47,703 bases of DNA from Trichormus sp. M33_DOE_039 (lineage in GTDB: Bacteria > Cyanobacteriota > Cyanobacteriia > Cyanobacteriales > Nostocaceae), in assembly GCA_015296085.1 (NCBI GenBank), contig DVDT01000066.1:1-47703 (forward strand). The letters run 5' to 3'. Shown here piece after piece: positions 1 to 25,602 of this stretch (its first letter is position 1; each line of letters begins with the position of its first letter). Position numbers and translations under genes: made by a program. The notes beneath the pieces were generated by a model. The model did not search any database and was not told the DNA's origin. It saw nothing but the letters and a program-made list of their open reading frames with translations.

Positions 1-1
1 A

Positions 2-460
2 GCCCTAGCTGATTTCAACCAAGCTCTGAAAATTAATCCTCAGTATGCTGATGCTTACATAGGTCGGGGTCTTGTTTACTCTAAGCAGGAGAAATGGGAA
101 TTAGCCCTGGCTGATTTTAACCAAGCTCTGAAAATTAATCCCCAGTATGCTGATGCTTACTACAATCGGGGTGTTCTTTACTCTAAGCAGGAGAAATGGG
201 AATTAGCCCTGGCTGATTACACCCAAGCTCTGAAAATTAATCCCCAGTATGTTGATGCTTACTACAGTCGGGGTCTTGTTTACTATGAACAGAAAAAAGG
301 GGAATTAGCCCTAGCTGATTACACCCAAGCTCTGAAAATTAATCCCCAGTATGTTGATGCTTACATAGGTCGGGGTCTTGTTTACTCTAAGCAGGAGAAA
401 TGGGAATTAGCACTAGCTGATTACACCCAAGCTATTACAATTAATCCTCAGTTGGCTGGA
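2..460 (+). repeat. 102-bp tandem TPR-coding repeats
   Basis: Successive units of 102 bp encode one 34-residue TPR each. They differ by only a few bases per copy (for example GATTTTAACC versus GATTACACC in helix B). The uniformity suggests recent unit duplication or gene conversion. Confidence 0.85.
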
Positions 461-613
461 GCATATGGAAATAGAGGATTAGTTTACGCCCAGAAAGGGG
501 ATAAACAAAAAGCCATTCAAGATTTACAGCAAGCAGCCCAACTTTTCAAAGCTCAAGAAAATACTGCTGGTTATGAAATGGCTATAAATTTCTTAAAACA
601 GTTACAAGAATAA
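2..613 (+). CDS. TPR-repeat protein, C-terminal part (5' end outside window)
   Basis: The reading frame is open from the window edge to the TAA at 611-613. It encodes 34-residue tetratricopeptide repeats with the core ALADFNQALKINPQYADAY, four to five copies, each written in a 102-bp DNA unit (for example from 2 and from 104). It ends in a divergent repeat with GDKQKAIQDLQQAAQLF and the tail FLKQLQE. That tail closely matches the C-terminus of the tandem-trypsin/TPR protein at 6374-10054, so the missing N-terminal part may also carry trypsin-like domains; this is inference. TPR arrays form protein-binding solenoids. The gene points towards the CHAT/WD40 gene at 857 and may be transcribed with it (gap about 240 bp). 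It is 5'-truncated by the window only; no internal defect is seen. Confidence 0.85.
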   Translation, partial: ALADFNQALKINPQYADAYIGRGLVYSKQEKWELALADFNQALKINPQYADAYYNRGVLYSKQEKWELALADYTQALKINPQYVDAYYSRGLVYYEQKKGELALADYTQALKINPQYVDAYIGRGLVYSKQEKWELALADYTQAITINPQLAGAYGNRGLVYAQKGDKQKAIQDLQQAAQLFKAQENTAGYEMAINFLKQLQE

Positions 614-856
614 TCATTTTTTACTAGCAATAAGACTTTCTTGGCATCAAAGCACTTGATTTAATAAAACAGCCATAGTAGACCTGAGACTTGCTTTTGA
701 TTCTGGTTCAAGTTTAGCATCACAGTCTTACAGGCTATGGGATATGGTTAGGCGATCGCTATCCACTATCACAATCAACTTTTGTAACAAACTCAGCCAT
801 TCGCGTAAAATACTCCCAAGCGTAGCGAACTCATAATAGAGGAATTATGCAGAGGT

Positions 857-3800
857 ATGAGTGTGGCAAACAATAAGTTAGTTGTCCTCAAGCTGGATGG
901 TGATTTCCATGAAGGGTTTCGCGCAAGTTTAACAATTAGCGTCGAGGGTTCGTTTCCCGACATTGAGCTAAGTGACAACACATTAAAATTACCGCCACTT
1001 CCTACCCTACCTGAGATATATCAAACTTGGTCGAAAAGTTATCGCAGTCTGGATGGATACCGCATTAAACCCAAAAAAGACCAAATTACTAATGTCAGGT
1101 TTCAATCTCTGAAAACAGAATGTCACACTCAAGCAGACATTCTCAAACAGCAATTTCTCAATTGGTTACAAGCAGATTCCTTTCGGCGCATCAAAGAAAT
1201 ATGTTTATCACAACTAAACTCTGATGATGAAGTGCGAGCAATTATTCGCACCAATGAAACGCAACTGCGAAAATTACCTTGGCATTTATGGGATTTATTT
1301 GGGTATTATCCTCATGCAGAATTAGCGTTAAGTTCCCTATCATCCCAACGCATAAAACTTAGTAACCGCTCCAATATCCGCATATTAATTATCCTGGGTA
1401 ATAGCGAAGGAATCAATGTAGCCGAAGATGAAAAACTCCTGAAACAATATTGCCAAGCAGCCGAAATCGTCGTTTTAGCTGAACCTTCACCAGCCGAACT
1501 TAACCAACATCTTTGGGATGAAACAGGCTGGGATGTCATCTTCTTTTCTGGTCATAGTCGCACAGAATCAACACAAGGTAGAATCTTTCTCAACCGCACC
1601 GATAGTTTAACAATGGAGCAGTTGCGGTATGGACTGCAAACTGCTGTCAGCAAAGGTTTGCAGTTAGCGTTTTTTAACTCCTGTGATGGCTTAGGAATCG
1701 CCGCCGAGTTAGAAACATTGCACATTCCGCAAGTAATTGTGATGCGCGAACCTGTACCGGATAAGGTAGCCCATCAGTTTTTAAAAGACTTTATTCAACA
1801 GTTTACAAGCAACAAATCCTTCTATCAATCTGTTAATATTGCCCGCAAAAAATTACAAGGTTTAGAAACAGAATATCCTTGCGCTAGTTGGTTGCCAATA
1901 ATTGTACAGAATCTGTTAGCAACACCCCCCACATGGCAAAGTCTGGGGGCTATAAAAAAGTGTCCCTATAGAGGTTTAGCTGCATTTCAAGAAGAAGATG
2001 CAGCTTATTTTTATGGGCGAGAAACGGTGACGCAACAGTTAGTAGCGGCGTTGAAAACAAAGCATTTGGTAGCTGTGGTTGGGGCTTCTGGAAGCGGGAA
2101 ATCTTCAGTGGTGTTTGCGGGATTAATTCCGCAATTAAAGCGAGATAGAAGCCATCATTGGCAGATAGTATCTTTTCGTCCAGGGAATAACCCGTTAGAA
2201 TCATTAGCGATGGCTATGCCCGCCGCAGGCATCGCACTTCATCAAGGACTGAAGACTAGGGAGAGGTTGCAAGAGTTAGAATTTGAGGTAGGGTTGAGAG
2301 AGAGCGATCGCACTTTACAAAACTTCCTAGAATCCCTCCATACTGCTGCACCCAAGTCTCACCTAGTTCTGATTGCCGATCAATTTGAAGAACTATATAC
2401 TCTGTGTCAGGACAGCGAAGAACGTCAAATCTTTCTAGATCATCTCCTGAAGGCGGTAAAAACTGTTCCCAACTTCACCTTAGTTTTAACCTTACGCGCA
2501 GACTTTTTTAGCGAAGTATTATCTTACCGTCCCTTGAGTGATGCTTTGCAGGATGGACAAATCAACTTAGGGGCGATGAACGCCACAGAATTAGCCGCAG
2601 CGATAGAAAAACCCGCCCATAGCCTGAATATACAGTTAGAACCAGGATTAACTCAACGTCTGATTGACGTAGTGTTAACATCTCCCTCTTACTTACCCCT
2701 GCTGGAATTTACCTTAACCCAGTTGTGGGAAAAACAACAGCAAGGATGGCTAACTCATCAAGCCTACGCAGACATTGGCGGAGTAGAAATCGCTTTAGCC
2801 AACCATGCAGAATCAATTTATGCTCAACTGAATACAGCAGATAAAGATAGAGTGCGACAAATATTTATTCAATTAGTGCAACCCACAGACAAAAATGTAG
2901 ATAGCCGCCGTTTAGCGACTCGTGAAGAAGTAGGAGAAGAGAATTGGAAATTAATTGCACAGTTAGCAAATGGGCGATTAGTAGTTACAAATCGCCATGA
3001 AATGACTAATGTTGAAACCGTAGAAATTATTCATGAGGCATTAATCAAAAATTGGCGCAGATTAAAACAATGGATGGAGAGCGATCGAGAATTCCGCCGT
3101 TGGCAAGAGCAATTAAGAGTAGTCATACGACAATGGGAAAATAGTAATCAAGATACTGGTGCATTGTTGCGAGGTAAGCCGTTAATTGATGCTGAAGAAT
3201 GGTTACGCCAACGCCCTACAGAAATTAGTGCTAATGAACAGAGTTTTATTAATTATAGTTTAGAACTACGGGATAAAGAAGAAAGCCAGAAGAATGCAAT
3301 TAAACGACAAATTATTATCAGCTTATCTACTGGGTTACTAGCAGCATTAGTGTTATCAGTATTTGCTTTATCTCAATGGCAACAATCAGAACGTCTGAGA
3401 CAGGAGAATCAAATCAGTGAATTAAAATCACTCAGCTTTTTAAGTTTAAATAACAATCAAATTCAGGCATTAATTCACACTATTGATGTACTAAATAGGT
3501 CAGATAAATTAAATAAATTAGATACACAAAAAAAGATAGGTGTATTAACTCCCGTTGTAGAAAATCTCCGGCAAATTAGAGAATACAATCGGCTAGAAGG
3601 TCATACAGGCGAAGTTACCAGTTTAAATTTTAGTTCTAATGGTCAGCTTTTAGCATCAGCAAGTGAAGATGGAAAAATTAAAATTTGGCAAAAGAACGGA
3701 CTGTTAATCCAGACACTCACCGGACATAAACAGAGTGTGTTTAGTGTTATGATGAGCCATGATAGCCAATTACTAATCGCTGGAAGTTTTGATAACACTG

Positions 3801-5428
3801 TCACTATCTGGCGATATAATTCAGCAACAGGAGTATTTGAAACTCATCCTTTTGTAACTATTGCCGAACCAGATGGATTATTAGCAACTCGCTTAACTCC
3901 TGATAATAGAATGTTAGCGACTGCCAACGAAAAAGGTCAAGTTAAATTCTGGGCATTGGATGGTAAATTAATTAAAACAATTGCTGCCCATAACCAAAAA
4001 ATCTGGAGTTTGAGTTTTAGTCCTGATGGTAAAACCTTCGCTACAGCTAGTGCTGATAAAACTGTTAAGATTTGGACTCTAGAAGGGAAGCTTATCAAAA
4101 CCTTATCAGGTCATAGTGAGGAAGTATTAAGCGTTAATTTTAGTCCAGATAGTCAGAAATCGGTTACTGCAAGTGCAGATAAAACAGTGAAACTTTGGGA
4201 TGTCACAGGTAAATTATTACATACATTTAATGGTCATGAAGATGAAGTATTAGATGTACGTTTTAGTCCTGATGGTAAATTAATAGCTAGTGCAAGTGCA
4301 GATAATACAGTCAAAATTTGGAGTATTGACACTAAAACACAACTCTACACATTGTCAGGACATGGGCGTAAAGCATCAGAAGTGAGTTTTAGTCCAGATA
4401 GTCAAACTATAGCTACTGCAAGCGCAGATAATAGCATCAAACTATGGCGTTTAGAGGGTATGTCACCGAATTTTACTGGTAATCATATTAGTGTTAGCCC
4501 TGATGAAAAAACTATCGCAATTAGCGATGAACAAGGTATTATTACCCTCAGAAAACGTGATGGAAGTTTACTTCACAGCTTTCCAGCACATCAAGGAGAA
4601 ATCATCAAAGTTATTTTTAATCCTGTTGAGAAAAATTTTGTCACTATCGGTAAAGATAATCAGATTAAAGTTTGGGATTTGTCAGGAAAATTATTAAAAA
4701 ATTGGCAATTAAACCACAGTTTTAGTAATTATATAGATGTAGTTGATGAGATTCGAGATGCGAGTTTCAGTCCAGATGGTAAAATACTAGCGACTGTTGG
4801 CGGACGCGAAAACAACATTAAACTATGGAATCTCGATGGTAATTTATTAAAAACTTGGCAAGATCAGACTAATTTAGTCACAACTATCCAATTTAGTCCA
4901 GACGGTAAAACCTTAGCAACTAATAACGATAAAACTGTAAACTTGTGGAATTTACAGGGCAATTTATTAAAAGTAATATCTGGGCATAACGAGAATATCA
5001 CATCTGTAATATTTAGTTCTGATGGCAAAATAGTTGCTACAGCTAGTCTAGATAAAACCGTGAAACTTTGGGATAGTCATAGCGGAAAGTTATTACGAAC
5101 TTTAGAGCATCAAGATAAAGTTTATGATATTAGCTTTAGTCCTGATAGCCAAGTGCTAGTTTCAGCCAGCGCAACTCAAGTTAATTTTTGGAATTTAGCA
5201 GGTGAATTACTCCATACCCTACCAGGATTTACTAATAATATTAAGGAAGTTAATTTTAGTATCAACGGTAATATTATTACTTTAGTAGATGTTCAAAACA
5301 ATATCAGATTATGGGATTTAAATATCCAAGATTTACAACAGCGTAGTTGTGATTGGTTACAAGATTACCTCACTACCAATCCCAATTTAGGTATAGAAGA
5401 ACGCCGCCTATGCAGCCAAGATAAATAA
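857..5428 (+). CDS. CHAT peptidase - STAND NTPase - transmembrane - WD40 (14 repeats) protein
   Basis: This 1523-residue protein combines four parts. A caspase-like CHAT domain (about 120-350) has candidate catalytic His233 in FFSGH and Cys276 in FFNSCDG. A STAND-type P-loop NTPase follows (about 370-700), with Walker A GASGSGKSS at 409-417 and Walker B LVLIADQFEE ending near 512. A single hydrophobic segment lies at about 816-838. From about 910 to 1510 there are 14 WD40 repeats, enough for two seven-blade propellers. Known families: CHAT domains are cysteine peptidases, STAND NTPases are ATP-driven oligomerising switches, and WD40 propellers sense partners. The ATG at 857 is preceded by AGAGGA at 838-843. 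The membrane segment would put NTPase and WD40 on opposite sides of the membrane unless it is a buried helix. The small TPR gene follows 19 bp later, probably in the same transcript. Domain calls are strong; the target is unknown. Confidence 0.92.
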   Translation: MSVANNKLVVLKLDGDFHEGFRASLTISVEGSFPDIELSDNTLKLPPLPTLPEIYQTWSKSYRSLDGYRIKPKKDQITNVRFQSLKTECHTQADILKQQFLNWLQADSFRRIKEICLSQLNSDDEVRAIIRTNETQLRKLPWHLWDLFGYYPHAELALSSLSSQRIKLSNRSNIRILIILGNSEGINVAEDEKLLKQYCQAAEIVVLAEPSPAELNQHLWDETGWDVIFFSGHSRTESTQGRIFLNRTDSLTMEQLRYGLQTAVSKGLQLAFFNSCDGLGIAAELETLHIPQVIVMREPVPDKVAHQFLKDFIQQFTSNKSFYQSVNIARKKLQGLETEYPCASWLPIIVQNLLATPPTWQSLGAIKKCPYRGLAAFQEEDAAYFYGRETVTQQLVAALKTKHLVAVVGASGSGKSSVVFAGLIPQLKRDRSHHWQIVSFRPGNNPLESLAMAMPAAGIALHQGLKTRERLQELEFEVGLRESDRTLQNFLESLHTAAPKSHLVLIADQFEELYTLCQDSEERQIFLDHLLKAVKTVPNFTLVLTLRADFFSEVLSYRPLSDALQDGQINLGAMNATELAAAIEKPAHSLNIQLEPGLTQRLIDVVLTSPSYLPLLEFTLTQLWEKQQQGWLTHQAYADIGGVEIALANHAESIYAQLNTADKDRVRQIFIQLVQPTDKNVDSRRLATREEVGEENWKLIAQLANGRLVVTNRHEMTNVETVEIIHEALIKNWRRLKQWMESDREFRRWQEQLRVVIRQWENSNQDTGALLRGKPLIDAEEWLRQRPTEISANEQSFINYSLELRDKEESQKNAIKRQIIISLSTGLLAALVLSVFALSQWQQSERLRQENQISELKSLSFLSLNNNQIQALIHTIDVLNRSDKLNKLDTQKKIGVLTPVVENLRQIREYNRLEGHTGEVTSLNFSSNGQLLASASEDGKIKIWQKNGLLIQTLTGHKQSVFSVMMSHDSQLLIAGSFDNTVTIWRYNSATGVFETHPFVTIAEPDGLLATRLTPDNRMLATANEKGQVKFWALDGKLIKTIAAHNQKIWSLSFSPDGKTFATASADKTVKIWTLEGKLIKTLSGHSEEVLSVNFSPDSQKSVTASADKTVKLWDVTGKLLHTFNGHEDEVLDVRFSPDGKLIASASADNTVKIWSIDTKTQLYTLSGHGRKASEVSFSPDSQTIATASADNSIKLWRLEGMSPNFTGNHISVSPDEKTIAISDEQGIITLRKRDGSLLHSFPAHQGEIIKVIFNPVEKNFVTIGKDNQIKVWDLSGKLLKNWQLNHSFSNYIDVVDEIRDASFSPDGKILATVGGRENNIKLWNLDGNLLKTWQDQTNLVTTIQFSPDGKTLATNNDKTVNLWNLQGNLLKVISGHNENITSVIFSSDGKIVATASLDKTVKLWDSHSGKLLRTLEHQDKVYDISFSPDSQVLVSASATQVNFWNLAGELLHTLPGFTNNIKEVNFSINGNIITLVDVQNNIRLWDLNIQDLQQRSCDWLQDYLTTNPNLGIEERRLCSQDK

Positions 5429-5447
5429 ATTTTATTAATTACCAATT

Positions 5448-6302
5448 ATGAAGCTACCTGTTACTTGTTTTAGCCTGACAATTACTATTTTTACTACCTT
5501 TGGGGTGATGTTACCAAAAATCGAAGCATTACCAACGCCAACCCCAACAAACCAAACAGCTACCAACTGGTTTTTACAAGGGATACAAAAGTTAAATCAG
5601 CGAAATTATCCAGATGCAATATCAGACTTTACCCAAGCTATTCAAATTAATCCCCAATATGCCGAAGCTTATTATCAACGGGGTTTAATTTATGCTAAGT
5701 ATGCTCAAGGAGAACCTTTAAACCCAGATGGAACTGTACCAGGATGCAAAAAAATCGATGCTTATAGAATTGTTTGTAGTGTGGAAGTAAGAGCCAGAAC
5801 TGAAGAGAATAAACGTCTAGCTATTGCAGATTTCAATCAGGCGATTCAAATTAACCCTCAATATGCAGAAGCCTATCGTCAGCGAGGGTTAATCCAAGAG
5901 GAAAATGCACAAAAGTTAGCAGATTTTCAAGTAGCAAAAGAGCTTTATTGGCAAAAAAGTTTAGTGGCTTTAGAACAGCAAAAATTAGCTGAGTTTGATA
6001 AATTTTTAGAAAATGTTAAGCAACTGGATGCGGAAATTAAATCGCTGACTAAACTGGTTTTATTACCGGAAGATCCAGAGTTAAGAAATCCCATAGGTTC
6101 TTCTACATTTTCCCCTGATTCTATAGAAGAGTTAGAAAATCAAGCTCGTGCAGCTTTGAGGAAAAAAGATATACAAATAGCACTTCAGAAATATAGAGTA
6201 TTAGCTCGTAAACTATACGAACAGAAAAACTATCAAAGATATGAGCAAATACAGTTAATTATCGTAAGGCTGGAAAATCTCCGAAGGCAATTAGGTAAGT
6301 GA
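5448..6302 (+). CDS. Exported TPR protein
   Basis: The 284-residue product starts with a signal-peptide-like stretch (MKLPVTCFSLTITIFTTFG, then a Pro/Thr-rich mature start). It has two canonical TPRs with NYPDAISDFTQAIQINPQYA and RLAIADFNQAIQINPQYAEA. Between them a 35-residue insert contains two cysteines (GCKKIDAYRIVCSVE). The C-terminal 120 residues are helical and charged with no recognised domain. It begins 19 bp after the CHAT/WD40 stop, so the two are likely co-transcribed. A role as exported adaptor for the WD40 part or for the facing trypsin/TPR proteins is inference. Its TPRs resemble those in the neighbouring giant proteins but are not near-identical copies. Confidence 0.85.
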   Translation: MKLPVTCFSLTITIFTTFGVMLPKIEALPTPTPTNQTATNWFLQGIQKLNQRNYPDAISDFTQAIQINPQYAEAYYQRGLIYAKYAQGEPLNPDGTVPGCKKIDAYRIVCSVEVRARTEENKRLAIADFNQAIQINPQYAEAYRQRGLIQEENAQKLADFQVAKELYWQKSLVALEQQKLAEFDKFLENVKQLDAEIKSLTKLVLLPEDPELRNPIGSSTFSPDSIEELENQARAALRKKDIQIALQKYRVLARKLYEQKNYQRYEQIQLIIVRLENLRRQLGK

Positions 6303-6373
6303 AGATTACGAAAATTTAGATACTCTAATTTTTAGAAAGAACCTTCCTACTAATGCACCCTGCTAACTAATTC

Positions 6374-9300
6374 CTATTGTTGTAATTTTTTTAAGAAATT
6401 CATAACAGTTTCATAAGAAACATTATTTCCTTGATCTTGAAAAAGTTGGGCTGCTTGCTTTAAATCTTTAATAGCTTTTTGTTTATCTCCTAGATTAACG
6501 TAAACAGATCCTCTACTTGCGTAAGCAAAAGCATAATCAGTATTAATCTTAATAGCTTGGTTGTAATCAGCTAGAGCTAAATCCCATCTTTTCTGGTCAT
6601 AGTAAAGATTACCACGATTGTAGTAAGCTTCAAAATACTGAGGATTAACGGCAATGGCTTGGTTGTAATCAGCTAGAGCTAAATCCCATCTTTTCTGGTC
6701 ATAGTAAAGATTACCACGATTGTAGTAAGCTTCAAAATACTGAGGATTAACGGCAATAGCTTGGTTGTAATCAGCTAGAGCTAAATCCCATTTTTTCTGC
6801 CTATAGTAAAGAACACCCCGATTGTAATAAGCTTGAGTATACTGAGGATTAATCGTAATGGCTTTGATGTAATCAGCCTCAGCTAAATCCCATTTTTTCT
6901 GGCTATAGTAAAGAACTCCCCGACTGTAGTAAGCTTCAGCCAACAGAGGATTAATTACAATGGCTTGAGTATAATCAGCCAGAGCTAAATCCCATTTTTT
7001 CTGGTTATAGTAAAGAACACCCCGATTGTAGTAAGCTTCAACCAACAGAGGATTAATCGCAATAGCTTGAGTATAATCAACCTCAGCTAAATCCCATTTT
7101 TTCTGGTTATAGTAAAGAACACCCCGATTGTAATAAGATTGAACATCCTGAGGATTAATGGCAATCGCTTGAGTATAATCAGCCAGTGCTAAATCCCATT
7201 TTTTCTGGTTATAGTAAAGAACACCCCGATTGTAGTAAGCTTCAGCCAACAGAGGATTAATAGAAATGGCTTGAGTATAATCAGCCTCAGATAAATCCCA
7301 TTTTTTCTGATTATAGTAAAGAACACCCCGATTGTAGTAAGCATCAACATACTGAGGATTAATCGCAATGGCTTTAGTGTAATCAGCCAGAGCTAAATCC
7401 CATTTTTTCTGGTCATAGTAAAGATTACCCCGACCCTTGTAAGCATCAACATACTGAGGATTAATCGCAATGGCTGTAGTATAATCAGCAAGAGCTAAAT
7501 CCCATTTTTTCTGGTCATAGTAAAGAATACCTCGATTGTTGTAAGCAGTAGCACCTTGAGGATTAATCGCAATGGCTTTAGTGTAATCAGCCAGAGCTAA
7601 ATCCCATTTTTTCTGCTCTTTGTAAAGAACACCCCGATTGATGTAAGCAGTAGCACCTTGAGGATTAATGGCAATGGCTTGGTTGAAATCAACAAGAGCT
7701 AAATCCCATTTTTTCTGGTCATAGTAAAGAATACCCCGATTGTTGTAAGCATCAGCATACTGAGAATTAATTATAATGGCTTGATTGAAATCAGCGAGTG
7801 CTAAATCCCATTTTTTCTGGTCAGCGTAAAGATAACCTCGATTGTAGTAAGCAGTAGCATTTTGAGGATTAATGGTAATGACTTGATTGAAATCAGCGAG
7901 TGCTAAATCCCATTTTTTCTGGTCAGCGTAAAGATTACCCCGATTGTTGTAAAACGCAGCGCGTGGATTGATTTCAATTGCTTTATTAATTGCTAATTCT
8001 GCTTCTGCATATCGTTTTAAATTATCTAAGACTGTCCACTTTTCGTTATAAAGGTCTGGGTTTTTTGGCTGGAGTTGAATAGCTTTTTCTATTGCTACTA
8101 ATGCCTTCTCTGGCTGCTTTAATACACGATAGACTAGACTTAGTGTTTGCCAAGCAGTCACAAAATCTGGTTTGAGTTTGGTTGCTGACTCAAATGCAGC
8201 TATAGACTCTTGATGTTTTCCATCCCAACTTAATGCCAAACCCTTGCCATAATAAGCTAAATAAACGAATGCAGGTTTCAGCTTAATTGCTTCATCAAAT
8301 GCTTTGACTGCTTCTGAATCACGACCCAACCTCCACAATTGATTTCCTCTTTCTAACCATTGGCTGGCTGTGGCATTTCCTTGGGAGATATCTATTGATA
8401 GTACCGCTTCTTGAATCGACTTGACTTGTTGGATATTTAGTGGCGATGCTGGATTCGTTTCTACATGAAGTGCTTGCACACCAAATCTTTTTGCTAACCC
8501 TAAAAACGTATCCACAGGAATACCTAAACTATAGCCTAGTTGTACTTTTCCTCCACTACTACCCCTATCTCCTGTTTTCTCATCAAAGACTTGTTCTCCC
8601 TCTGCGCGTCCATGAATCCCAATTACTCTTCCTTGGGAATCTAATACAGCCCCACCACTCATCCCCCCATAAGTAATGCTAGTGTAAACTAATTCATATC
8701 CTCCGTTTGAGGAACTTGCTGTTTGTAATTTTCCAGAACTGTCAGTTTGAAAATCTGATTGTCTAGATTGTAGTAATCCCTGTTCTTTCTCAAAAGTCTG
8801 CCCCATTGTCAGCCGCCAAGGTGAACTATTCCCTAGCCTGGGATAGCCAGCAGTAAACATATAATCCAAATTGTTGGGGTTATAGTTGGCTAGAGTAGCT
8901 ACTTGATAATTCTGATTAGGTGCAGTAAATTTAACAATCCCTAAATCTACACCCTCTTCTGTTTTAATCGTGCTTTTCTCTACAGGATATTGTTTCCCAT
9001 CTGGGGCAAGTATTTGATATTTAAAATTACCACATGGCTGAGTGTAATCTTGTCTCTCACAGACAACATGTGCTGCTGTTAAAACTGTGTATGTATCCCC
9101 ATCTTTAGCAATAATGATTCCTGAACCATTAGCGTTACTATTGCTATCAATTCTGATGCTATCAATTCTGACGCTGATTTGTTTGGCTTTTTGTTCTAAT
9201 TCCTCTAACCATCCGGTTAATTGTGTTGTGGGTACATTAGGTTGTGATTGTGGTAACGGTAAGGAATAAGCTGTGAGAATATCTGGTTTCACCTGCGCTA

Positions 9301-10054
9301 AGAAGGTAGAAATAGGTATTCCCCAACTGAGTTGACGCATTTGCTGAATTTCTGCATCACTGGGACGCGAACCATCAGGATAGACATAACCTGTGTTTAA
9401 TATTGGGTACGCACTTCTACCGTTTACCCCGATTATTTGTCCTACAGAACTGAGAATTACACCACCACTCATTCCCTGTTCGATGTCGCTGGTGTAACCA
9501 ATTTGATAGCCTTCTTTGAGTGGTATATCCCAAATTTTCTGCACTGTACCTGTGCTGAATACTATTTCGCCTTTAGCAGAAGAATATCCCGCCGCTATGA
9601 CTTGTGTATCGCTATCGGGGAGGAAATTTGCTATTTCTTGGAGACAATAGTTTTGATTGGTTTGGAATTGTAGTAAGGCTAAATCAAATTTTTCAAAGTT
9701 GGTATTGGGGACTATTTGTGCGGAATATATTTTACCATCAGATGTTTGCAAGTTAATGCTTTTAACTCCGCGAATTACGTGAGAGTTTGTCAGCACTAGG
9801 TAGGTATTCCCTTGTTTACCTAGTAATGTTCCTGAACCCCCATTTTTATCTCCTATTACCCTAACTGTAATGCGACTTGCTAGGGTTTTGAGTTGCTGGG
9901 TTGAATATTCTCCGGTTTCTCCATTTTCTGCTTTGCTTTCACATGAAGCAGTTTCTATTGCTGCTTTTGTAACTAATGGAGATAAGGTTACAAAACTAAA
10001 GCTAGAAGATAGGAAAAATATTAAGAAAGTGATAATAGCTGAATTTTGATTCAT
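6374..10054 (-). CDS. Exported tandem trypsin-like / long TPR-array protein (first copy)
   Basis: I start this at the ATG at 10054, not 10132. The upstream 26 codons run through an intergenic hairpin, while from 10054 a clear signal peptide follows (MNQNSAIITFLIFFLSSSF). The 1226-residue product has two trypsin-like domains. The first has His92 (TNSHVI), Asp124 (KFDLALL) and Ser196 (GMSGG); the second has His329 (TAAHVV), Asp370 (GVDLGIV) and Ser466 (GGMSGG). Both triads are intact. About 19 TPRs follow, 14 of them variants of YYNQKKWDLALADYTQAIAI. It is likely an extracytoplasmic serine protease whose TPR solenoid selects partners (inference). It is convergent with the + strand TPR gene and lies downstream of the COP23 and trypsin/PPC genes. 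A paralogue is at 12484-16308. Confidence in the domains is high; the function is not known. Confidence 0.9.
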   Translation of the reverse strand: MNQNSAIITFLIFFLSSSFSFVTLSPLVTKAAIETASCESKAENGETGEYSTQQLKTLASRITVRVIGDKNGGSGTLLGKQGNTYLVLTNSHVIRGVKSINLQTSDGKIYSAQIVPNTNFEKFDLALLQFQTNQNYCLQEIANFLPDSDTQVIAAGYSSAKGEIVFSTGTVQKIWDIPLKEGYQIGYTSDIEQGMSGGVILSSVGQIIGVNGRSAYPILNTGYVYPDGSRPSDAEIQQMRQLSWGIPISTFLAQVKPDILTAYSLPLPQSQPNVPTTQLTGWLEELEQKAKQISVRIDSIRIDSNSNANGSGIIIAKDGDTYTVLTAAHVVCERQDYTQPCGNFKYQILAPDGKQYPVEKSTIKTEEGVDLGIVKFTAPNQNYQVATLANYNPNNLDYMFTAGYPRLGNSSPWRLTMGQTFEKEQGLLQSRQSDFQTDSSGKLQTASSSNGGYELVYTSITYGGMSGGAVLDSQGRVIGIHGRAEGEQVFDEKTGDRGSSGGKVQLGYSLGIPVDTFLGLAKRFGVQALHVETNPASPLNIQQVKSIQEAVLSIDISQGNATASQWLERGNQLWRLGRDSEAVKAFDEAIKLKPAFVYLAYYGKGLALSWDGKHQESIAAFESATKLKPDFVTAWQTLSLVYRVLKQPEKALVAIEKAIQLQPKNPDLYNEKWTVLDNLKRYAEAELAINKAIEINPRAAFYNNRGNLYADQKKWDLALADFNQVITINPQNATAYYNRGYLYADQKKWDLALADFNQAIIINSQYADAYNNRGILYYDQKKWDLALVDFNQAIAINPQGATAYINRGVLYKEQKKWDLALADYTKAIAINPQGATAYNNRGILYYDQKKWDLALADYTTAIAINPQYVDAYKGRGNLYYDQKKWDLALADYTKAIAINPQYVDAYYNRGVLYYNQKKWDLSEADYTQAISINPLLAEAYYNRGVLYYNQKKWDLALADYTQAIAINPQDVQSYYNRGVLYYNQKKWDLAEVDYTQAIAINPLLVEAYYNRGVLYYNQKKWDLALADYTQAIVINPLLAEAYYSRGVLYYSQKKWDLAEADYIKAITINPQYTQAYYNRGVLYYRQKKWDLALADYNQAIAVNPQYFEAYYNRGNLYYDQKRWDLALADYNQAIAVNPQYFEAYYNRGNLYYDQKRWDLALADYNQAIKINTDYAFAYASRGSVYVNLGDKQKAIKDLKQAAQLFQDQGNNVSYETVMNFLKKLQQ
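6537..7965 (-). repeat. 14 x 102-bp tandem repeat array (TPR-coding)
   Basis: Fourteen consecutive 102-bp units encode QKKWDLA-type TPRs. The two units at 6555-6656 and 6657-6758 match at 101 of 102 positions by eye, so that duplication is recent. Such an array can expand or contract by recombination or slippage without breaking the frame. Confidence 0.9.
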
Positions 10055-10077
10055 ATTAATGCTCAAAACTTTTTGAT

Positions 10078-10140
10078 TATTGCAGGTTGATGAAATATTA
10101 ATTTTGGTGGGCTGGATAAAGCCATAACCCACCCGATAGG
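10078..10140. repeat. Inverted repeat upstream of the trypsin/TPR gene
   Basis: GGTGGGCTGGATAAAGCC and its partial complement GGCTTTATCC/CCCACC lie just 5' of the chosen start of the 6374-10054 gene. They can form a hairpin in its leader. This overlaps the N-terminal extension of the longer frame, which is one reason for rejecting that extension. Confidence 0.5.
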
Positions 10141-10146
10141 GAACTA

Positions 10147-10722
10147 TTAATTTTTCAAGAGAGGAGAATTATTAAAAATTTCTTTCACGGAAATATACAA
10201 TTGATCGCCTGAATTTTGGAAAATTGGCTCGGCACTTTTACCTTCTGCAATGTCCATTATTCTTTGTATTACTTCCCTTGGGTCACTGCCGGATTTAACA
10301 GTAAATAGCTGATTGATTTCGTTACAAGTTTCTCCTTGATTAGCAAAGGCACAAATCACAGGATTGCCGTTACGCTTTCCGTAAGATAGGTAATTTAAAC
10401 GACCTTGAGCATAAAATTCTTGGAATTTTTTTGTAACTTCTTGACAGCGTTTCTCTGGTGTCCAGCCACTTTTATTAAAGTATTCCGATTTCCAACCAAT
10501 GAAACGTACATGACCTTTCCGTTCAGGAATCCAAGCTACTGTAGCGGGAATTCTCTCACCACTTGCTGCATCAAACATTGGCTGACAAAAGAAGGTCACT
10601 TTATCCGGTTGAGATGTAGCAGCATTTGATTGGCTGAAACTAGGAGATAAGCTCACAACTAAACTGGTTAAAGATGTGACAACGGTTAGTCCTAAACTGA
10701 TGATGAATGATTGTTTTTGCAT
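10147..10722 (-). CDS. COP23-domain exported protein
   Basis: I chose the ATG at 10722, which has AGGA about eight bases upstream and begins a signal peptide (MQKQSFIISLGLTVVTSL). The longer frame from 10812 adds 30 non-conserved residues. The 191-residue product carries the COP23 (circadian oscillating protein 23) pattern. It shows FFCQ near the start, a WIPERKGHVRFIGWKSEYF stretch, a later RCQEV, then VICAF and TCNEI, giving four conserved cysteines likely to form disulphides outside the cytoplasm. COP23 was first described as a membrane-associated, rhythmically abundant cyanobacterial protein; its biochemical role is not established. It sits 90 bp downstream of the trypsin/PPC gene and upstream of a trypsin/TPR gene, so co-expression is plausible. 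Confidence 0.82.
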   Translation of the reverse strand: MQKQSFIISLGLTVVTSLTSLVVSLSPSFSQSNAATSQPDKVTFFCQPMFDAASGERIPATVAWIPERKGHVRFIGWKSEYFNKSGWTPEKRCQEVTKKFQEFYAQGRLNYLSYGKRNGNPVICAFANQGETCNEINQLFTVKSGSDPREVIQRIMDIAEGKSAEPIFQNSGDQLYISVKEIFNNSPLLKN

Positions 10723-10812
10723 AGATTTGATCCTTGAAATTGATAAGTCAGTGAAAATGTAATAGGTAGAGGAGACAACAGAAGAAATCTTCCCCCAATC
10801 CCCATTCCCCAA

Positions 10813-11967
10813 TTAAGGTTTGACTGCTGCACGCAAACTGTAATTTCCTATTTCTCCTCGTTCATTAGAACTGGCAACTATTAAATAAAACCCATCTGCT
10901 GGTAAAGTGGTGGCAATCTGAGCATTTAAATCATTAGCTCCTCTATCATCGTTTTCGGCTATTTTTATAAATTCTCTACCTTCAGCAGATTCACTCACTT
11001 GATACAAACTTAGAAATGAATTAATCTTCTGACTGGTCATGTCAATGACTACTTGTTGGTTAGCTCGACCTTGAAATTGATAGAGGTTGATAAACCTACC
11101 ATCGGCAAGGGTGCGATCGCCTGCTGTTAAACTGTCATTAATTAGTTGACCATTGAGTGAAATAGTGGCTACAGTCGGTTCTTGTCTGCGTTCTAAGGTA
11201 GATTTACTGGCAACTCGTCGGTTCTGTACGTCTGCTATAAAAGATTTGACGTTGCTGACAGCAAGAGCCAAATTAATCCCAGTACCACTGGGTGTGCGAG
11301 CCACTAAATTACCTGCGCCATCAAAAACTGGAGCTAGAGCGACCCAAGAATTCACACCAATCACATCTCCCTGAGCATTTAATAAAGGCCCCCCAGAGTT
11401 ACCTGGATTAGTGCTGGCTGTATGTTGAACGCTGCCATCTTCTCGAATTCGGCTAATATAACCTTGAGTGCAAGTATCCCGATTATCTGGGTCTAACGGA
11501 CTACCAATAGCAAAGACGCGATAACCAACTTTGGCTGAACCTGGACGGGCTAAATTAAGATGCGGTAGACTTTTGCGGTTTTGGATTTTTAATGCAGCTA
11601 AATCTACACCTCCATGAGCAAAACCAATCACATCTGCGGGAGCTTGCTGACCATCTTTAAAAACCACTGTGACAACGCTGGGACTACCTTGGACAACGTG
11701 AGCATTGGTAATAATTAATCCGTCTTGACTAACTAGAAAACCGCTACCGTGTCCTTTACCATCTTTAACGGTGACGACGGCTTTGCTGGCTTTCTCGCAA
11801 ACTCGGTTCGCTTCTTTTTCCTCAGATGTTTGCGCTAATGCACGGTCAGAGCGTTGTCCATGTTGTGTGTGATCAGATAATAGCTGTTCAACGCTGACTA
11901 CTCCTGTAAAAGTCAATGTAGTAGATAGCGTTAAAGTTACCAATTTAAAGAATTTGCTGTTCATCAT
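10813..11967 (-). CDS. Exported trypsin-like serine protease with pre-peptidase C-terminal domain
   Basis: The 384-residue product has an N-terminal signal peptide (FFKLVTLTLSTTLTFTGVV). A trypsin-like domain of the HtrA/DegP fold covers about 55-250: His in TNAHVV, Asp in GGVDLAAL, Ser in NPGNSGGPL. The C-terminal about 110 residues (from TISLNGQLINDSLTAGD to GNYSLRAAV) match the bacterial pre-peptidase C-terminal beta-sandwich, which is usually a secreted-protease accessory domain. There is no PDZ domain, unlike HhoA/HtrA. Two adjacent ATGs (11967 and 11964) could start it. It heads a - strand gene run with COP23 and the trypsin/TPR gene. It is likely periplasmic or secreted; the substrate is unknown. 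Confidence 0.9.
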   Translation of the reverse strand: MMNSKFFKLVTLTLSTTLTFTGVVSVEQLLSDHTQHGQRSDRALAQTSEEKEANRVCEKASKAVVTVKDGKGHGSGFLVSQDGLIITNAHVVQGSPSVVTVVFKDGQQAPADVIGFAHGGVDLAALKIQNRKSLPHLNLARPGSAKVGYRVFAIGSPLDPDNRDTCTQGYISRIREDGSVQHTASTNPGNSGGPLLNAQGDVIGVNSWVALAPVFDGAGNLVARTPSGTGINLALAVSNVKSFIADVQNRRVASKSTLERRQEPTVATISLNGQLINDSLTAGDRTLADGRFINLYQFQGRANQQVVIDMTSQKINSFLSLYQVSESAEGREFIKIAENDDRGANDLNAQIATTLPADGFYLIVASSNERGEIGNYSLRAAVKP

Positions 11968-12387: not shown

Positions 12388-12429
12388 TTGAAAAAAATAT
12401 CCTCGACTTTTCTAAAAAGTCGAGGATAT
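12388..12429 (-). terminator. Rho-independent terminator of the second trypsin/TPR gene
   Basis: Arms ATATCCTCGACTTTT (12397-12411) and AAAAGTCGAGGATAT (12415-12429) pair perfectly over 15 bp around a 3-base loop. Read on the - strand the hairpin is followed by a run of T. It lies 55 bp after the stop of the 12484-16308 gene. Confidence 0.85.
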
Positions 12430-12483
12430 GAGTCTTTTGCTTCTGATAAAGTGTCTAAATTAACTCACGGATTTTGTTTTAAA

Positions 12484-15400
12484 TTAACGCATCTGTGAAA
12501 GTAAGCTTTGAATTTGAGGGCTAGAGAGTAATTTTTGAGCATCAGCAATTAAATTTTCACCCCAGAGATTTTTTTTCAAAAAGTTTATATCAGCGAAGTT
12601 TTTGTCTAACTGTAAAGCAGTTTGAGCTAACTTATAGGCTGTTTCTTGTTCCCCTTTCTTATATAAAGCAACTGCAATAGCTAGATGTGGTTCAGCAGAT
12701 TTATTATCTAAGTTTATGGCTTGTTGCCATTGTTTAACAGCTTCGTCAATCGCTCCCTGTTCATATTTAATCAAGCCAATATTATTAATACCTAGCAGTA
12801 ATTTTTCATCTTTAGCTAGTGCTTGGTTGTATTCTGCAAGAGCTAAAGTATATTTATTTTGCTCATGGTAAAGAATACCTCGGTTGATGTAACCTTGAGC
12901 AAAATCAGGATTAATCTTTATAGCTTGGTTGAAATCATCCAGGGCTAATTCCCATTTTTGAAGCTTTTTGTAAACAAGACCCCGACCTATGTAAGCAAGA
13001 ACATTCTCAGGACTAATTTTCAGAGATTGGTAGAAATCAGCCAGAGCTAATTCCCATTTTTGAAGATCATAGTAAAGACTACCTCGAACTATATAACCTT
13101 GAGCAAAACCAGGATTAGTCTTAATAGCTTGATTGAAATCATTCAGGGCTAAATCCCATTTCTTCTGCTCATAGTAAAGGCTACCCCGAACTATATAACC
13201 TTGAGCAAGATCAGGATTAATCTTGAGAGCTTGGTTGTAATCAGCTAGTGCTAATTCCCGTTTATTCTGGTCATAGTAAATAATACCCCGAACTATATAA
13301 CCTTGAGCAAAATCAGGATTAATCTTGAGAACTTGGTTGTAATCAGCCAGGGCTAAATCCCATTTATTCTGGTCATAGTAAATAATACCCCGACTGTAGT
13401 AAGCATCAGCAAAATCAGGATTAATCTTGAGAACTTGGTTGTAATCAGCTAGTGCTAAATCCCATTTCTTCTGCTCATAGTAAATAATACCCCGACTGTA
13501 GTAAGCATCAGCATAATCAGGATTAATTTTGAGAGCTTGATTGTAATCAGCTAGTGCTAAATCCCATTTCTTCTGCTCATAATAAATAATGCCGCGACTG
13601 CAGTAAGCAAGAGCAAGAGCAGGATTAATCTTGAGAGATTGGTTGAAATCAGCCAGTGCTAAATCCCATTTCTTCTGCTTTTTATAAAAATTACCCCGAT
13701 TGTAGTACGCATCAGCAAAATCAGGATTAATCTTTATAGATTGGTTGAAATCAGCCAGTGCTGATTCCCGTTTCTTCTGCTCATAGTAAATAATACCCCG
13801 ACCTATGTAACCTTGAGCAAAATCAGGATTAATTTTCAGAGATTGGTTGAAATCAGCCAGAGCTAATTCCCATTTTTTCTGCTCTTTATAAAGATTACCC
13901 CGATTGTAGTAAGCTTCAGCCAAATCAGGATTAATTTTAATAGATTGGTTGTAATCAGCTAGAGCCAATTCCCATTTCTTCTGGTCATAGTAAAGATCAC
14001 CCCGATTGTTGTAAGCTTCAGCCAAATCAGGATTAATTTTGATAGCTTGGTTGTAATCAACCAGGGCTAAATCCCCTTTCTTATGCTTTTTATAAAAATT
14101 ACCCCGATTGTTGTAAGCATCAGCATAATCAGGATTAATCTTGAGAGCTTGGTTGTAATCGGCCAGTGCTAAATCCCATTTCTTCTGCTCATAGTAAAAA
14201 ATACCCCGATTGTTGTAAAACGCAGCACGGGGATTGAGTTCAATTGCTTTATTTATTGCTGTTTCTGCTTCCGCATATCGTTTTAAATTATCTAATACTA
14301 CGTACTGTTCGTTATAAAAGTTTGGGTTTCTTGGCTGGATTTTAATTGCTTTTTCTATTGCTACTAATGCCTTCTCTGGCTGGTTTAATTTACGATAAAC
14401 TACACTTATTGTATCCCAAGCAGATATATAGTCTGATTTGAGTTCGGTTGCTGACTTTAATGCAGCTACAGCCTCTTGATATTTTCCATTCCATCCTAAT
14501 ACCAAGCCCTTACCATAATAAGCTAAATAAACAAATGATGGCTTCAGCTTGATTGCTTCATCAAATGCTTTAACTGCTTCTTCATAACGACGCAACCGCC
14601 AGAGTTGATTCCCTCTTTCTAACCACTGGCTAGCTGTTGTATTGCCTTGGGAGATATCTGTTGATAATATTGCTTCTTGAATAGACTTGATTTGTTGTGC
14701 ATTAAGTTGAAGTGGAACAGTAGTTTCTACTTTTTGCGCTTGTACTCCCAATCTTGTTGATAATCCTAAAAATGTACTGGTGGGAATGCCTAAACTATAA
14801 CCTAGTTGTACTTGACCTCTACTACTACCCCTATCTCCCGTTTTCTCATCAATGGCTTGTTCTCCCTCAGCACGTCCATGAATCCCAATCACTCTTCCTT
14901 GGGAATCTAATACACCACCGCCACTCATTCCACCATAAGTAATGCTGGTGTAAACTAACTCATATCCTCCTGTTAAGGAACGTGCAGTTTGTAATTTGCT
15001 AGAATCGTCAGTTGAAAAATCTGATTGGCTAGATGCTAGTAATCCCCGTTCTTTGTCAAAAATCTGCCCCATTGTTAACCGCCAAGGCGAAGTATCCCCT
15101 AGTTTGGGATACCCAGCAGTAAACATATAGTCACCAGTATTAGGGTTATAGTTTGCTAGGGTCGCTACTTGATAATTCTGATTAGGTGCAGTAAATTTTA
15201 CAATCCCTAAATCTACACCTGACTCTGTTTTAATCGTGCTTTTGTCTACAGGATATTGTTTGCCGTCTGGTGCAAGGATTTGATAGTTATAGTTCCCGCA
15301 TGGCTTGGCTGCATCTTCTCTTTCACAAAGGACGTGTGCGGCTGTTAAGACTGTATAGGTATCACCATCTTTCGCAATAATTATGCCTGAACCATTAGCA

Positions 15401-16308
15401 TTGCTACTACTATCAATTCTCACAGTAATTTGTTTGGCTTTTTGTTCTAATTCTCCTAACCATCCGGCTAATTGCGTTGTTGGCACTGTGTAGGTTTGCT
15501 TTGGTAAAGGTAAGGAATAAGCTGTTAATGTTTGGTTGTTCACCTGCGCTAAGAATGTGGTGATAGGTATTCCCCAACTCAGTTTTCGCATTTGCTGTAT
15601 TTCTTCATCACTCGGACGTGAACCATCAGGATAGACATAACCTGTATTTAATATTGGGTACGCACTTCTACCATTTACTCCTATTATTTGTCCCACAGGA
15701 TTGAGAATTACACCGCCACTCATTCCCTGTTCGATGTCGCTGGTGTAACCGATTTGATAGCCTTCTTTGAGTGGTCTATCCCAAATTTGCTGCACTGTAC
15801 CTGTGCTAAAAACTATCTCTCCTTTAGCAGAAGAATATCCCGCCGCCATGACTTGTGTATCGCTATTGGGTAGAAAATTCGCTACTTCTTGTAGACAATA
15901 GTTTTGATTACTCTGAAATTCTAATAAGGCTAAATCGTAATTATCAAATTTAGTATTTGGTGTAATGGCTGCATTATATGTTTTTCCATCCGCCGTTTTG
16001 ATTTGTATGGAATTCACTCCTCTAATTACATGATGATTAGTGAGAACTAAATATTTATTTCCTCGTTTAGCAATCAGTGTTCCTGAACCGCCGTTTTTAT
16101 CACCAATTACTCTGACCGTGATCCGATTCGCTAGTGTTTTTAATTGTTCTGCTGAAAACTCTCCAGTATCTCCATTTTCCGCTTTGATTTCACAAGCTGA
16201 ATTATCAGCCACTACTTGAGGAATAGTGGAAGGTGTAGATTTCTGCACAGCCAATACAGGAAGTTGTAAAAATAATATGGAAGCAATAATTGCAATCTTT
16301 CTGCTCAT
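12484..16308 (-). CDS. Exported tandem trypsin-like / long TPR-array protein (second copy)
   Basis: The 1274-residue paralogue of the 6374-10054 product has a signal peptide (KIAIIASILFLQLPVLAVQ). Trypsin-like domain 1 has His93 (TNHHVI), Asp in NYDLALLEF and Ser197 (GMSGG). Domain 2 has His in LTAAHVL, Asp in GVDLGIV and Ser462 (GGMSGG). Both triads look intact. Four divergent TPRs precede 14 repeats of the YYEQKKWDLALADYNQALKI type, followed by about three more divergent repeats and a unique tail ending SLLSQMR that the first copy lacks. The protease halves are very similar between copies while the TPR halves differ in helix sequence (INPD versus INPQ), as expected if the arrays diversify independently. 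The ATG at 16308 is preceded by a 5' region of short tandem repeats. A strong terminator follows. Function unknown. Confidence 0.9.
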   Translation of the reverse strand: MSRKIAIIASILFLQLPVLAVQKSTPSTIPQVVADNSACEIKAENGDTGEFSAEQLKTLANRITVRVIGDKNGGSGTLIAKRGNKYLVLTNHHVIRGVNSIQIKTADGKTYNAAITPNTKFDNYDLALLEFQSNQNYCLQEVANFLPNSDTQVMAAGYSSAKGEIVFSTGTVQQIWDRPLKEGYQIGYTSDIEQGMSGGVILNPVGQIIGVNGRSAYPILNTGYVYPDGSRPSDEEIQQMRKLSWGIPITTFLAQVNNQTLTAYSLPLPKQTYTVPTTQLAGWLGELEQKAKQITVRIDSSSNANGSGIIIAKDGDTYTVLTAAHVLCEREDAAKPCGNYNYQILAPDGKQYPVDKSTIKTESGVDLGIVKFTAPNQNYQVATLANYNPNTGDYMFTAGYPKLGDTSPWRLTMGQIFDKERGLLASSQSDFSTDDSSKLQTARSLTGGYELVYTSITYGGMSGGGVLDSQGRVIGIHGRAEGEQAIDEKTGDRGSSRGQVQLGYSLGIPTSTFLGLSTRLGVQAQKVETTVPLQLNAQQIKSIQEAILSTDISQGNTTASQWLERGNQLWRLRRYEEAVKAFDEAIKLKPSFVYLAYYGKGLVLGWNGKYQEAVAALKSATELKSDYISAWDTISVVYRKLNQPEKALVAIEKAIKIQPRNPNFYNEQYVVLDNLKRYAEAETAINKAIELNPRAAFYNNRGIFYYEQKKWDLALADYNQALKINPDYADAYNNRGNFYKKHKKGDLALVDYNQAIKINPDLAEAYNNRGDLYYDQKKWELALADYNQSIKINPDLAEAYYNRGNLYKEQKKWELALADFNQSLKINPDFAQGYIGRGIIYYEQKKRESALADFNQSIKINPDFADAYYNRGNFYKKQKKWDLALADFNQSLKINPALALAYCSRGIIYYEQKKWDLALADYNQALKINPDYADAYYSRGIIYYEQKKWDLALADYNQVLKINPDFADAYYSRGIIYYDQNKWDLALADYNQVLKINPDFAQGYIVRGIIYYDQNKRELALADYNQALKINPDLAQGYIVRGSLYYEQKKWDLALNDFNQAIKTNPGFAQGYIVRGSLYYDLQKWELALADFYQSLKISPENVLAYIGRGLVYKKLQKWELALDDFNQAIKINPDFAQGYINRGILYHEQNKYTLALAEYNQALAKDEKLLLGINNIGLIKYEQGAIDEAVKQWQQAINLDNKSAEPHLAIAVALYKKGEQETAYKLAQTALQLDKNFADINFLKKNLWGENLIADAQKLLSSPQIQSLLSQMR
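12820..14220 (-). repeat. About 14 x 102-bp tandem repeat array (TPR-coding)
   Basis: This is a second array of 102-bp TPR units in the paralogue. It is more varied than the array at 6537-7965: QKKW, QNKW, QNKR, LQKW and KKHKKG variants occur, so it is probably older or under different selection. Confidence 0.85.
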
Positions 16309-16330
16309 ATGTGTTCTTCAATAGGGACTC

Positions 16331-16632: not shown

Positions 16633-16685
16633 ATCACATTCAAGCCTTGAAACACCTTGATATTCTGCTGTTTTTACTAGTCGAA

Positions 16686-25531: not shown

Positions 25532-25602
25532 AATAATAAGTGAGTGCGATCGCCGATTGGCACGATTAACCTAGAAGAGAAATCATATCCTATTCCAGCT
25601 AG

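Follow-up and report, generated by a model that had tools for sequence, protein, structure and literature searches.

A recurring cyanobacterial gene cassette that combines an exported protease/COP23 operon with a predicted membrane CHAT-STAND-WD40 protein

We analysed a 47,703-nucleotide stretch of Trichormus sp. M33_DOE_039, contig C62 of its 7.0-Mb genome taken from base 1 (hereafter the window). The window holds most of the genes of a recurring cassette of about 16 kb, made of two modules together with an extracytoplasmic function (ECF)-type sigma factor gene and a DUF1822 gene. The first module is an exported operon coding for an S1C-type trypsin with a PPC-like tail, a COP23 protein and a double-trypsin/TPR protein. 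The second module is rarer than the first. It codes for a protein composed of CHAT, nSTAND1, a transmembrane (TM) segment and 14 WD40 blades, and for a small exported TPR protein. Because the gene set recurs in several cyanobacteria and on a transferable plasmid, the genes probably work as one system and are unlikely to be neighbours by accident. Its best explanation would be an outside-in protease relay onto the STAND/CHAT protein as receptor, within a mobile cassette; we give this reading of the sequences a probability of roughly 0.4. Throughout, G000 designates the window's own genome, other G numbers the genomes compared, L numbers the loci or stretches fetched, and C numbers contigs.

Results

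Linkage of COP23 to exported proteases

To survey the 291 genomes of the order, thresholds of E <= 1e-60 for the double-trypsin and E <= 1e-8 for COP23 were used. The fused double-trypsin was found in 65 genomes and COP23 in 274. Ninety-nine stretches around double-trypsin sites were fetched and their open reading frames (ORFs) called by script. A double-trypsin gene was counted if its ORF covered at least 330 of the 487 profile positions, which gave 103 genes in 62 genomes. Copies that were shorter or cut by a contig end were not counted, which removes G077, G251 and G256; loci from the named collection were also left out, and unlabelled ORFs of less than 100 amino acids (aa) were ignored as neighbours. 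COP23 was present within 3 kb on the 5′ side, on the same strand, for 78 of the 103 genes, in 57 of the 62 genomes and all 17 family groups. The median gap was 200 bp, 59 of the 78 pairs being within 500 bp. From the density of COP23 (at least 421 matches in the 65 genomes, a sum of match counts in which six genomes stand at 13 or more), only about 0.17 such pairs were expected. In 33 of the 78 loci (4 censored), a trypsin/PPC gene stood 5′ of that COP23.

In genomes without the fused gene, a trypsin was found within two genes of 15 of 20 sampled COP23 genes; these controls are a biased sample, 20 high-scoring loci among the matches listed in genomes without double-trypsin matches. The other five loci were L173, L185, L186, L189 and L191. 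In all of these except L186, the COP23 domain was seen to lie within proteins of 618-639 aa. In the own genome, two of the four COP23 genes have a trypsin within two genes. A common order at the sampled loci is COP23, trypsin and trypsin-TPR as separate genes, as also on the own contig C115. Because these genes are so often separate neighbours, the double-trypsin protein may be a fusion of a neighbouring gene pair. The unfused COP23, trypsin, trypsin group of C115 (L026 9464-12494) is accompanied by an exported-looking 239-aa protein without Pfam match, and a kinase-like gene is nearby.

The protease genes were also observed on plasmids. Plasmid pSTA7437.01 of Stanieria PCC 7437 carries an S1C protease, COP23 and a serine protease in a row, and a plasmid of Stanieria NIES-3757 carries a double-trypsin. 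The COP23 operon is also present on contig G103:C2. A first-pass annotation of the window had related its domain set to self-recognition in multicellular bacteria. This link finds no support in the occurrence of COP23 in 274 of the 291 genomes and of the protease operon on a Stanieria plasmid, and multicellular and unicellular carriers were not compared.

Recurrence of the whole cassette

In G094, a single contig carries the sigma, DUF1822, double-trypsin/TPR, CHAT-STAND-WD40 and small TPR genes and, on the opposite strand, double-trypsin/TPR, COP23 and trypsin-PPC. The cassette is found unbroken and in the same order on plasmid2 of Aulosira laxa NIES-50 (AP018309.1), conjugative according to PLSDB, where the eight genes occupy about 16 kb. 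Identity between the Aulosira and own genes ranges from 49% (trypsin-PPC) to 73% (sigma). G058 differs from the G094 order in that its CHAT/TPR unit is inverted. In G021, genes of the same kinds are arranged differently, the sigma and DUF1822 genes directly preceding CHAT-STAND-WD40. Parts of the cassette were present in L029, L030, L032, L033 and L042.

The pairwise arrangements recur as well. Sigma and DUF1822 homologues adjoin one another in G094, G058, G021, L030, L033 and Aulosira, and a double-trypsin gene is placed between DUF1822 and CHAT in G094, G058, L030, L033, Aulosira and, over two contigs, the own genome. A homologue of the small TPR gene adjoins CHAT-STAND-WD40 in G094, G058, L029, L030, L032, L033, L042 and Aulosira (46-60% identity) and in G021 (L079_001, 33%). 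Among the 291 genomes, the CHAT-STAND protein has its three closest relatives (80, 79 and 64% identity over CHAT-STAND) in G094, G058 and G021, all of them encoded between or beside double-trypsin genes. In the named collection, CHAT-STAND-WD40 was found at 6 of 15 double-trypsin loci (Scytonema hyalinum, Calothrix, two Nostoc, Richelia and one uncultured cyanobacterium), several other loci being contig-cut; L044 (30% identity) was dropped as spurious, and L043 and L083 are probably one record.

Flanking ORFs of at least 100 aa are mostly unlike between loci. The exceptions are a 164-aa ORF next to trypsin-PPC, which G094 has in common with Aulosira, and some weaker matches to G021 (25-47% identity). 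Past 16.7 kb, only one window ORF of at least 100 aa has a match at the other cassette loci (775 aa, 42% in G021). In G094, L029, L030 and L042, an exported-looking ORF of 142-168 aa is located either between double-trypsin and CHAT or beyond CHAT; it was not seen in the window. Overall, the claim that the genes belong together is borne out by the linkage of COP23, the recurrence of the cassette and the plasmid copy. The co-localisation check that had been proposed gave homologues that are repeatedly co-localised and not scattered.

We also counted CHAT-type matches of any kind near the double-trypsin. Fourteen of 285 (a sum of match counts over the 65 genomes) were within 8 kb, in 13 genomes and five family groups, as compared to 1.13 expected under independence. 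Near the double-trypsin, the CHAT-STAND-TM-WD40 architecture occurs in the relatives of the window and in G250, and a shorter CHAT-TM architecture in G151, G021 and G075. CHAT proteins of architectures other than that of the window stand directly beside double-trypsin or COP23 in G095, G262, G236, G257, G221, G283 and G151. In six genomes of one genus, CHAT is directly 5′ of the double-trypsin, with CHAT-CHASE2 recognised by Pfam on one. A quick tree was built from 36 CHAT regions, and on it the near/far label clearly clusters: it needs 5 changes with all rows (12.4 in shuffles), 4 without one row of unknown state and 3 without a further row at 16-24 kb. The far rows of this tree are the best-scoring loci and no random sample, and several of its branches are long.

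Contig C13 and the edge of the window

Of the four double-trypsin genes in the own genome, the window contains two; the other two stand at the start of contig C13. The ORF at 2-613, counted among exported TPR proteins in the first-pass annotation, is cut by the contig edge and reads as probably the 3′ end of a third double-trypsin/TPR gene; the small TPR protein at 5448-6302 does have its N-terminal signal. The 5′ part of the third gene is probably G000:C13:3-2981 (minus strand, 993 aa), which runs off C13. The end of reverse-complemented C13 and the start of C62 fit one 102-bp unit in phase. Since their exact overlap is 0 bases, the probable adjacency of the two contigs is based on repeat phase and synteny.

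Behind the double-trypsin genes, C13 carries a DUF1822 gene (1.9e-67) followed by a sigma gene. The latter reaches 43.6 bits with the sigma70-ECF model (cut-off 42.9) and stays under the cut-off of Pfam region 4. Behind the other C13 double-trypsin gene, a 45-aa scrap with 91% identity to aa 67-111 of CHAT-STAND is probably the remnant of a duplicated protease-CHAT pair. Near the sigma gene, C13 (L025 8705-11608) also encodes a Prim-Pol/AAA_25 protein; replication genes of this type occur on mobile elements.

The CHAT-nSTAND1-TM-WD40 protein and its orientation

The ORFs listed in the first-pass annotation are real and its domain assignment of CHAT, STAND and 14 WD40 blades holds (Table 1). 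The CHAT domain belongs to the caspase superfamily with an intact His/Cys dyad. His233 (1553-1555) and Cys276 (1682-1684), which we take to be the catalytic residues, are invariant in 8 aligned sequences. In front of CHAT there is a conserved stretch of about 170 aa, which CHAT-CHASE2 also has (37% identity over this stretch plus CHAT); Pfam gave no match in it up to E 5. The protein has the three parts of a STAND protein, an NTPase module (nSTAND1), C-terminal repeats (WD40) and an N-terminal effector (CHAT). No PDB sequence matched the nSTAND1 stretch at 0.001 (phmmer). The 14 blades probably form two propellers.

Table 1. Features in the first part of the window
Feature	Positions	Strand	Evidence and remarks
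TPR-only ORF, cut by contig edge	2..613	+	C-terminus like that of the 6374-10132 product (by eye)
CHAT-nSTAND1-TM-WD40 gene, 1523 aa	857..5428	+	~170-aa N-terminal region, CHAT, nSTAND1, one TM, WD40 array
CHAT domain	1388..1891	+	PF12770, 4.7e-11
nSTAND1 NTPase domain	1964..3157	+	Pfam, 1.5e-120
Predicted TM segment, aa 819-837	3311..3367	+	Kyte-Doolittle; Lys/Arg 5 on N side vs 2 on C side (15 residues)
14 WD40 blades	3572..5326	+	Strand motifs by pattern
Small TPR protein with N-terminal hydrophobic signal	5448..6302	+	19 bp 3′ of the CHAT gene
Double-trypsin/TPR gene	6374..10132	-	Export signal; likely start ATG 10054 (by eye), not TTG/GTG
COP23 gene	10147..10812	-	PF14218, 5.5e-41; likely start ATG 10722 (by eye), not TTG/GTG; export signal
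S1C-type trypsin with PPC-like C-terminal part	10813..11967	-	Trypsin, 3.4e-31
Terminator-like hairpin, 15 pairs + T tail	12397..12429	-	3′ of gene 12484-16308; consensus scan
Second double-trypsin/TPR paralogue	12484..16308	-	Pfam Trypsin_2, TPR units

A TM segment between STAND and WD40 was predicted in 13 of 13 CHAT-STAND-WD40 sequences. In 12 of these, Lys and Arg are commoner on the N side of the segment (equal in one). The 13 proteins have 3-10 cysteines before the segment. Behind it, 11 have exactly two, 21 residues apart; the exceptions are L029 (one cysteine, elsewhere) and the broken L042 gene (none). In the window protein, the only cysteines after the segment are this C-terminal pair, at aa 1498 and 1519. 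The charge bias and the lone cysteine pair suggest an orientation with the N-terminus inside and the C-terminus outside, so that the WD40 propellers would be outside the cytoplasm.

A hydrophobic stretch in the first 60 residues was found in 112 of 116 double-trypsin ORFs and 0 of 23 CHAT ORFs. The corresponding values were 81 of 107 for COP23, 21 of 30 for trypsin-PPC and 150 of 570 for other ORFs of at least 200 aa. These fractions are rough because ORF starts were set mechanically. They agree with the earlier view of exported proteases and a cytoplasmic NTPase; the WD40 part of the same protein is probably extracytoplasmic, which that view did not foresee.

The exported proteases and COP23

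Each of the two window paralogues contains two Trypsin_2 stretches (Pfam 1.5e-41 and 2.3e-42) and 14 strong 34-aa TPR units, plus weaker ones. As had been annotated, both triads are intact: their His, Asp and Ser are invariant in 14 aligned sequences, two of which are from the window. In the 12484-16308 protein they occupy H93/D125/S197 and H325/D366/S462, read from the motifs as the putative catalytic residues. The third trypsin had been described as carrying a PPC domain. Its trypsin domain was recognised (Table 1), and the PPC-like tail is under the Pfam cut-off (21.5 versus 25.9 bits).

All window trypsins have an S1C chymotrypsin-type protease domain with its triad. The solved structures closest to the protease pair, by sequence and by fold (model pTM 0.47), are of DegP/DegS type. 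Full Pfam lists of the three proteins contained no PDZ domain, TPR or PPC-like parts being present instead, and scores were far under the NCBIfam Deg cut-offs. We filed the proteins as S1C-type and not as Deg. The quoted definition of HtrA/Deg (S1C) allows 0-4 PDZ domains behind the protease domain.

The window COP23, found where it had been annotated, scores 140 bits against a curated cut-off of 27, which places it in the family. Each of its four cysteines is kept in at least 104 of 105 aligned sequences. A COP23 model (mean pLDDT 74.8) matched no PDB fold at E <= 0.001 (best 0.13), and by sequence no relative in the PDB scored below E 0.07. At the level of a guess, COP23 could be a protease inhibitor or propeptide.

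Gene 10813-11967 is probably the first of an operon running from 11967 to 6374. Judged by eye from its N-terminus, its product is likely exported; it reached no hydropathy threshold for an export signal. Gene 12484-16308 is probably its own transcription unit, and the hairpin at 12397-12429 is a weak mark of the boundary with the operon. Over positions 1-17000, terminator-like sites were no more frequent than in shuffles (10 versus 12.8), and promoter-like sites, which were fewer than in shuffles (39 versus 48.6), were ignored.

Neighbouring genes

Kinase-like genes, recognised by eye, were observed near the double-trypsin in 37 ORFs from 32 genomes or named loci (L025-L043, L074-L172), a count given without a base rate. 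WD40 proteins stand directly beside COP23 or double-trypsin in L127, L128, L135 and L140. By eye, their N-terminus is AAA-like in three and kinase-like in one. A 430-aa gene resembling helix-turn-helix (HTH)/AAA proteins is nearby in L127, L135 and L140. The window itself contains complete-looking type I restriction-modification genes HsdS, HsdM and HsdR (22357-27936), about 6 kb from the cassette, and heptamer and octamer tandem repeats at 37457-37581 and 41054-41089.

Discussion

Comparison with known systems

The cassette appears to fit a published pattern of sigma, DUF1822 and caspase-type genes. In the consulted part of Kaur et al. (2021, eLife 70394, PMC8195603), EACC2-caspase proteins have a constant N-terminus (alpha/beta plus caspase) and a variable C-terminus (TM with CHASE2, STAND, repeats, trypsin), and their genes neighbour ECF sigma and DUF1822 genes. 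Autoproteolytic activation is put forward there as a proposal. Similarly, CHAT with nSTAND1-TM-WD40 (or CHAT-CHASE2) occurs here with sigma and DUF1822 neighbours, on the own contig C13 and in relatives. Unlike in that part of the description, exported double-S1C/TPR proteases, COP23 and trypsin-PPC form a convergent second module. The main texts of PMC8195603, PMC7159879 and PMC10907252 contain 0 occurrences of COP23, and no description of a COP23-protease operon was found among titles and abstract openings of the open-licence PMC literature. What appears new is an exported protease/COP23 arm on a caspase-type/STAND system with sigma and DUF1822, of which we found no description.

The first-pass annotation was right that the domain set resembles published predicted conflict systems. 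As in the portion seen of PMC7159879, on NTP-dependent conflict systems of multicellular prokaryotes, a STAND NTPase, trypsin and caspase-like peptidases and repeats occur together. Unlike in those systems, MoxR, vWA, VMAP and NucA gave no Pfam match in the ORFs scanned; for MoxR, vWA and VMAP these were 20 of the 30 window ORFs of at least 100 aa (for the WD40 protein, the best 25 of 59 matches) and four C13 ORFs. DUF1822 has 0 occurrences in the main text of PMC7159879. In nuclease-protease pairs (Hachiman, AVAST and others, and caspase-nuclease loci), as far as the excerpt of PMC12799240 goes, a protease fused to other defence enzymes activates a nuclease. In contrast to what is set out there, the proteases here appear to be exported, and no nuclease was recognised by Pfam among the cassette genes. 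COP23 itself was described as a circadian membrane protein of Synechococcus RF-1 (Chen 1996, as cited in PMC6315102). The window protein shares the family and the membrane association given in the part of PMC6315102 at hand; that part names no protease partner, whereas here COP23 is in a protease operon.

The DegS/RseA/sigma-E pathway is a relay from an extracytoplasmic S1C protease to a sigma factor. Likewise, an extracytoplasmic S1C-type protease, a membrane protein and an ECF-type sigma factor are encoded together here. The differences are that two protease domains are fused to TPR and not to PDZ, that the protein in the membrane is of STAND/CHAT type, and that no anti-sigma factor was recognised.

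Proposed mechanism and rival explanations

The relay would operate from a cassette in which sigma, DUF1822, double-trypsin/TPR, CHAT-nSTAND1-TM-WD40 and small TPR genes converge on double-trypsin/TPR, COP23 and trypsin-PPC. Outside the cytoplasm, the exported S1C-type proteases would act as a sensing arm in which COP23 and the TPR arrays serve recognition or regulation. The CHAT-STAND protein would span the membrane, its CHAT and NTPase domains facing the cytoplasm and its propellers the exterior. An external proteolytic event or ligand would be relayed through the propellers, the STAND module would oligomerise, and the cytoplasmic CHAT peptidase would then be switched on. The ECF-type sigma factor and DUF1822 would provide a transcriptional or death output. 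Gene content, recurrence, mostly unlike flanks, the plasmid copy, intact catalytic motifs, export signals and the TM segment come from the computation itself; the topology, the protein contacts, the order of the relay, the oligomerisation and a role in defence or stress death are inferred. We regard as doubtful the full combination, in which a mobile, NLR-like receptor with outside WD40 is triggered by an exported double S1C cascade, with COP23 as cofactor or regulator and an ECF-type sigma output.

Another possibility, which we hold tentatively, is that two independent systems share one mobile island, a housekeeping-like COP23/S1C envelope-protease operon and a sigma-DUF1822-CHAT-STAND conflict system whose proximity aids transfer only. 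COP23 is indeed next to trypsin without CHAT at most loci, COP23 and trypsin are also together at 15 of the 20 sampled loci of genomes without the fused gene, COP23 is near-ubiquitous in the survey, and the CHAT tree is no proof of repeated independent linkage. Speaking against this separation are the double-trypsin gene placed between DUF1822 and CHAT in the own genome and the other cassettes with this arrangement, and the CHATs of other architectures beside double-trypsin or COP23. The nSTAND1 domain, C-terminal repeats and N-terminal effector represent an NLR-like layout, and STAND immune proteins are usually seen as cytoplasmic sensors. The system might then be of the usual kind, with cytoplasmic propellers binding a phage protein and the exported proteases as secondary effectors. 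All three parts are present in the 857-5428 protein, and the window trypsin domains score to the PADLOC models LmuA and RT-Protease. Yet the TM segment separates STAND from WD40 in all 13 sequences, the cysteine pair is alone behind it in 11, and the proteases have export signals, so that we find this version unlikely. The PADLOC matches cover the protease domain, and membership in LmuA or RT-Protease was not adopted.

Proteases that are exported, multi-copy and mobile, with TPR arrays that differ, would also suit secreted antagonism against competitors or grazers, the CHAT-STAND protein being an immunity or regulatory partner. Among the cassette genes, however, Pfam recognised no dedicated secretion or immunity gene, and we consider antagonism very improbable. 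That expanded repeat-protein families merely happen to be neighbours gains something from the size of the TPR, WD40 and CHAT families (84 own-genome matches of the CHAT-STAND-WD40 protein). We rejected it as barely credible in view of the recurrence, including on a plasmid, with mostly unlike flanks, and of the COP23 linkage.

Several observations weigh against the outside-in relay. In the own genome, the cassette is divided over two contigs. Twenty-five of the 103 double-trypsin genes lack COP23, including 12484-16308, both C13 genes and most CHAT-adjacent copies. Most double-trypsin clusters (86 clusters) have no nearby CHAT gene, so that the exported arm can do without one. Few lineages contribute to the 14 CHAT links, which are not independent (six are from one genus and three from the window's family), and one or two of them could be due to chance. 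Since the number of changes on the CHAT tree depends on two rows, separate origins of the linkage are not established. Nor is the unit always kept whole. Both double-trypsin genes of G058 (L076 ~5700-5900 and 17050-17250) are frame-broken at the same place between the protease and TPR parts, for which gene conversion, programmed frameshift and decay are candidates, and the CHAT gene is broken in L042 and G283. PADLOC gave no system-level match. Finally, the topology is read from hydropathy, charge and cysteines, and net charge favours the N side in 9 of 13 sequences, is equal in 2 and reversed in 2.

Significance

The first-pass annotation had missed the two modules, the sigma and DUF1822 genes of C13, the probable extracytoplasmic position of WD40 and the plasmid copy. 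If the outside-in relay is correct, a mobile unit in which a STAND protein is coupled across the membrane to exported proteases would represent a version of such proteins that senses the extracellular side, with a logic comparable to the protease-triggered receptor pathways of animals. The COP23 family would gain a functional partner, S1C-type proteases, across the order. COP23 is tied to these proteases in all 17 family groups with the fused double-trypsin and in 15 of the 20 other loci sampled. Therefore, its role as inhibitor, chaperone, substrate or adaptor becomes testable.

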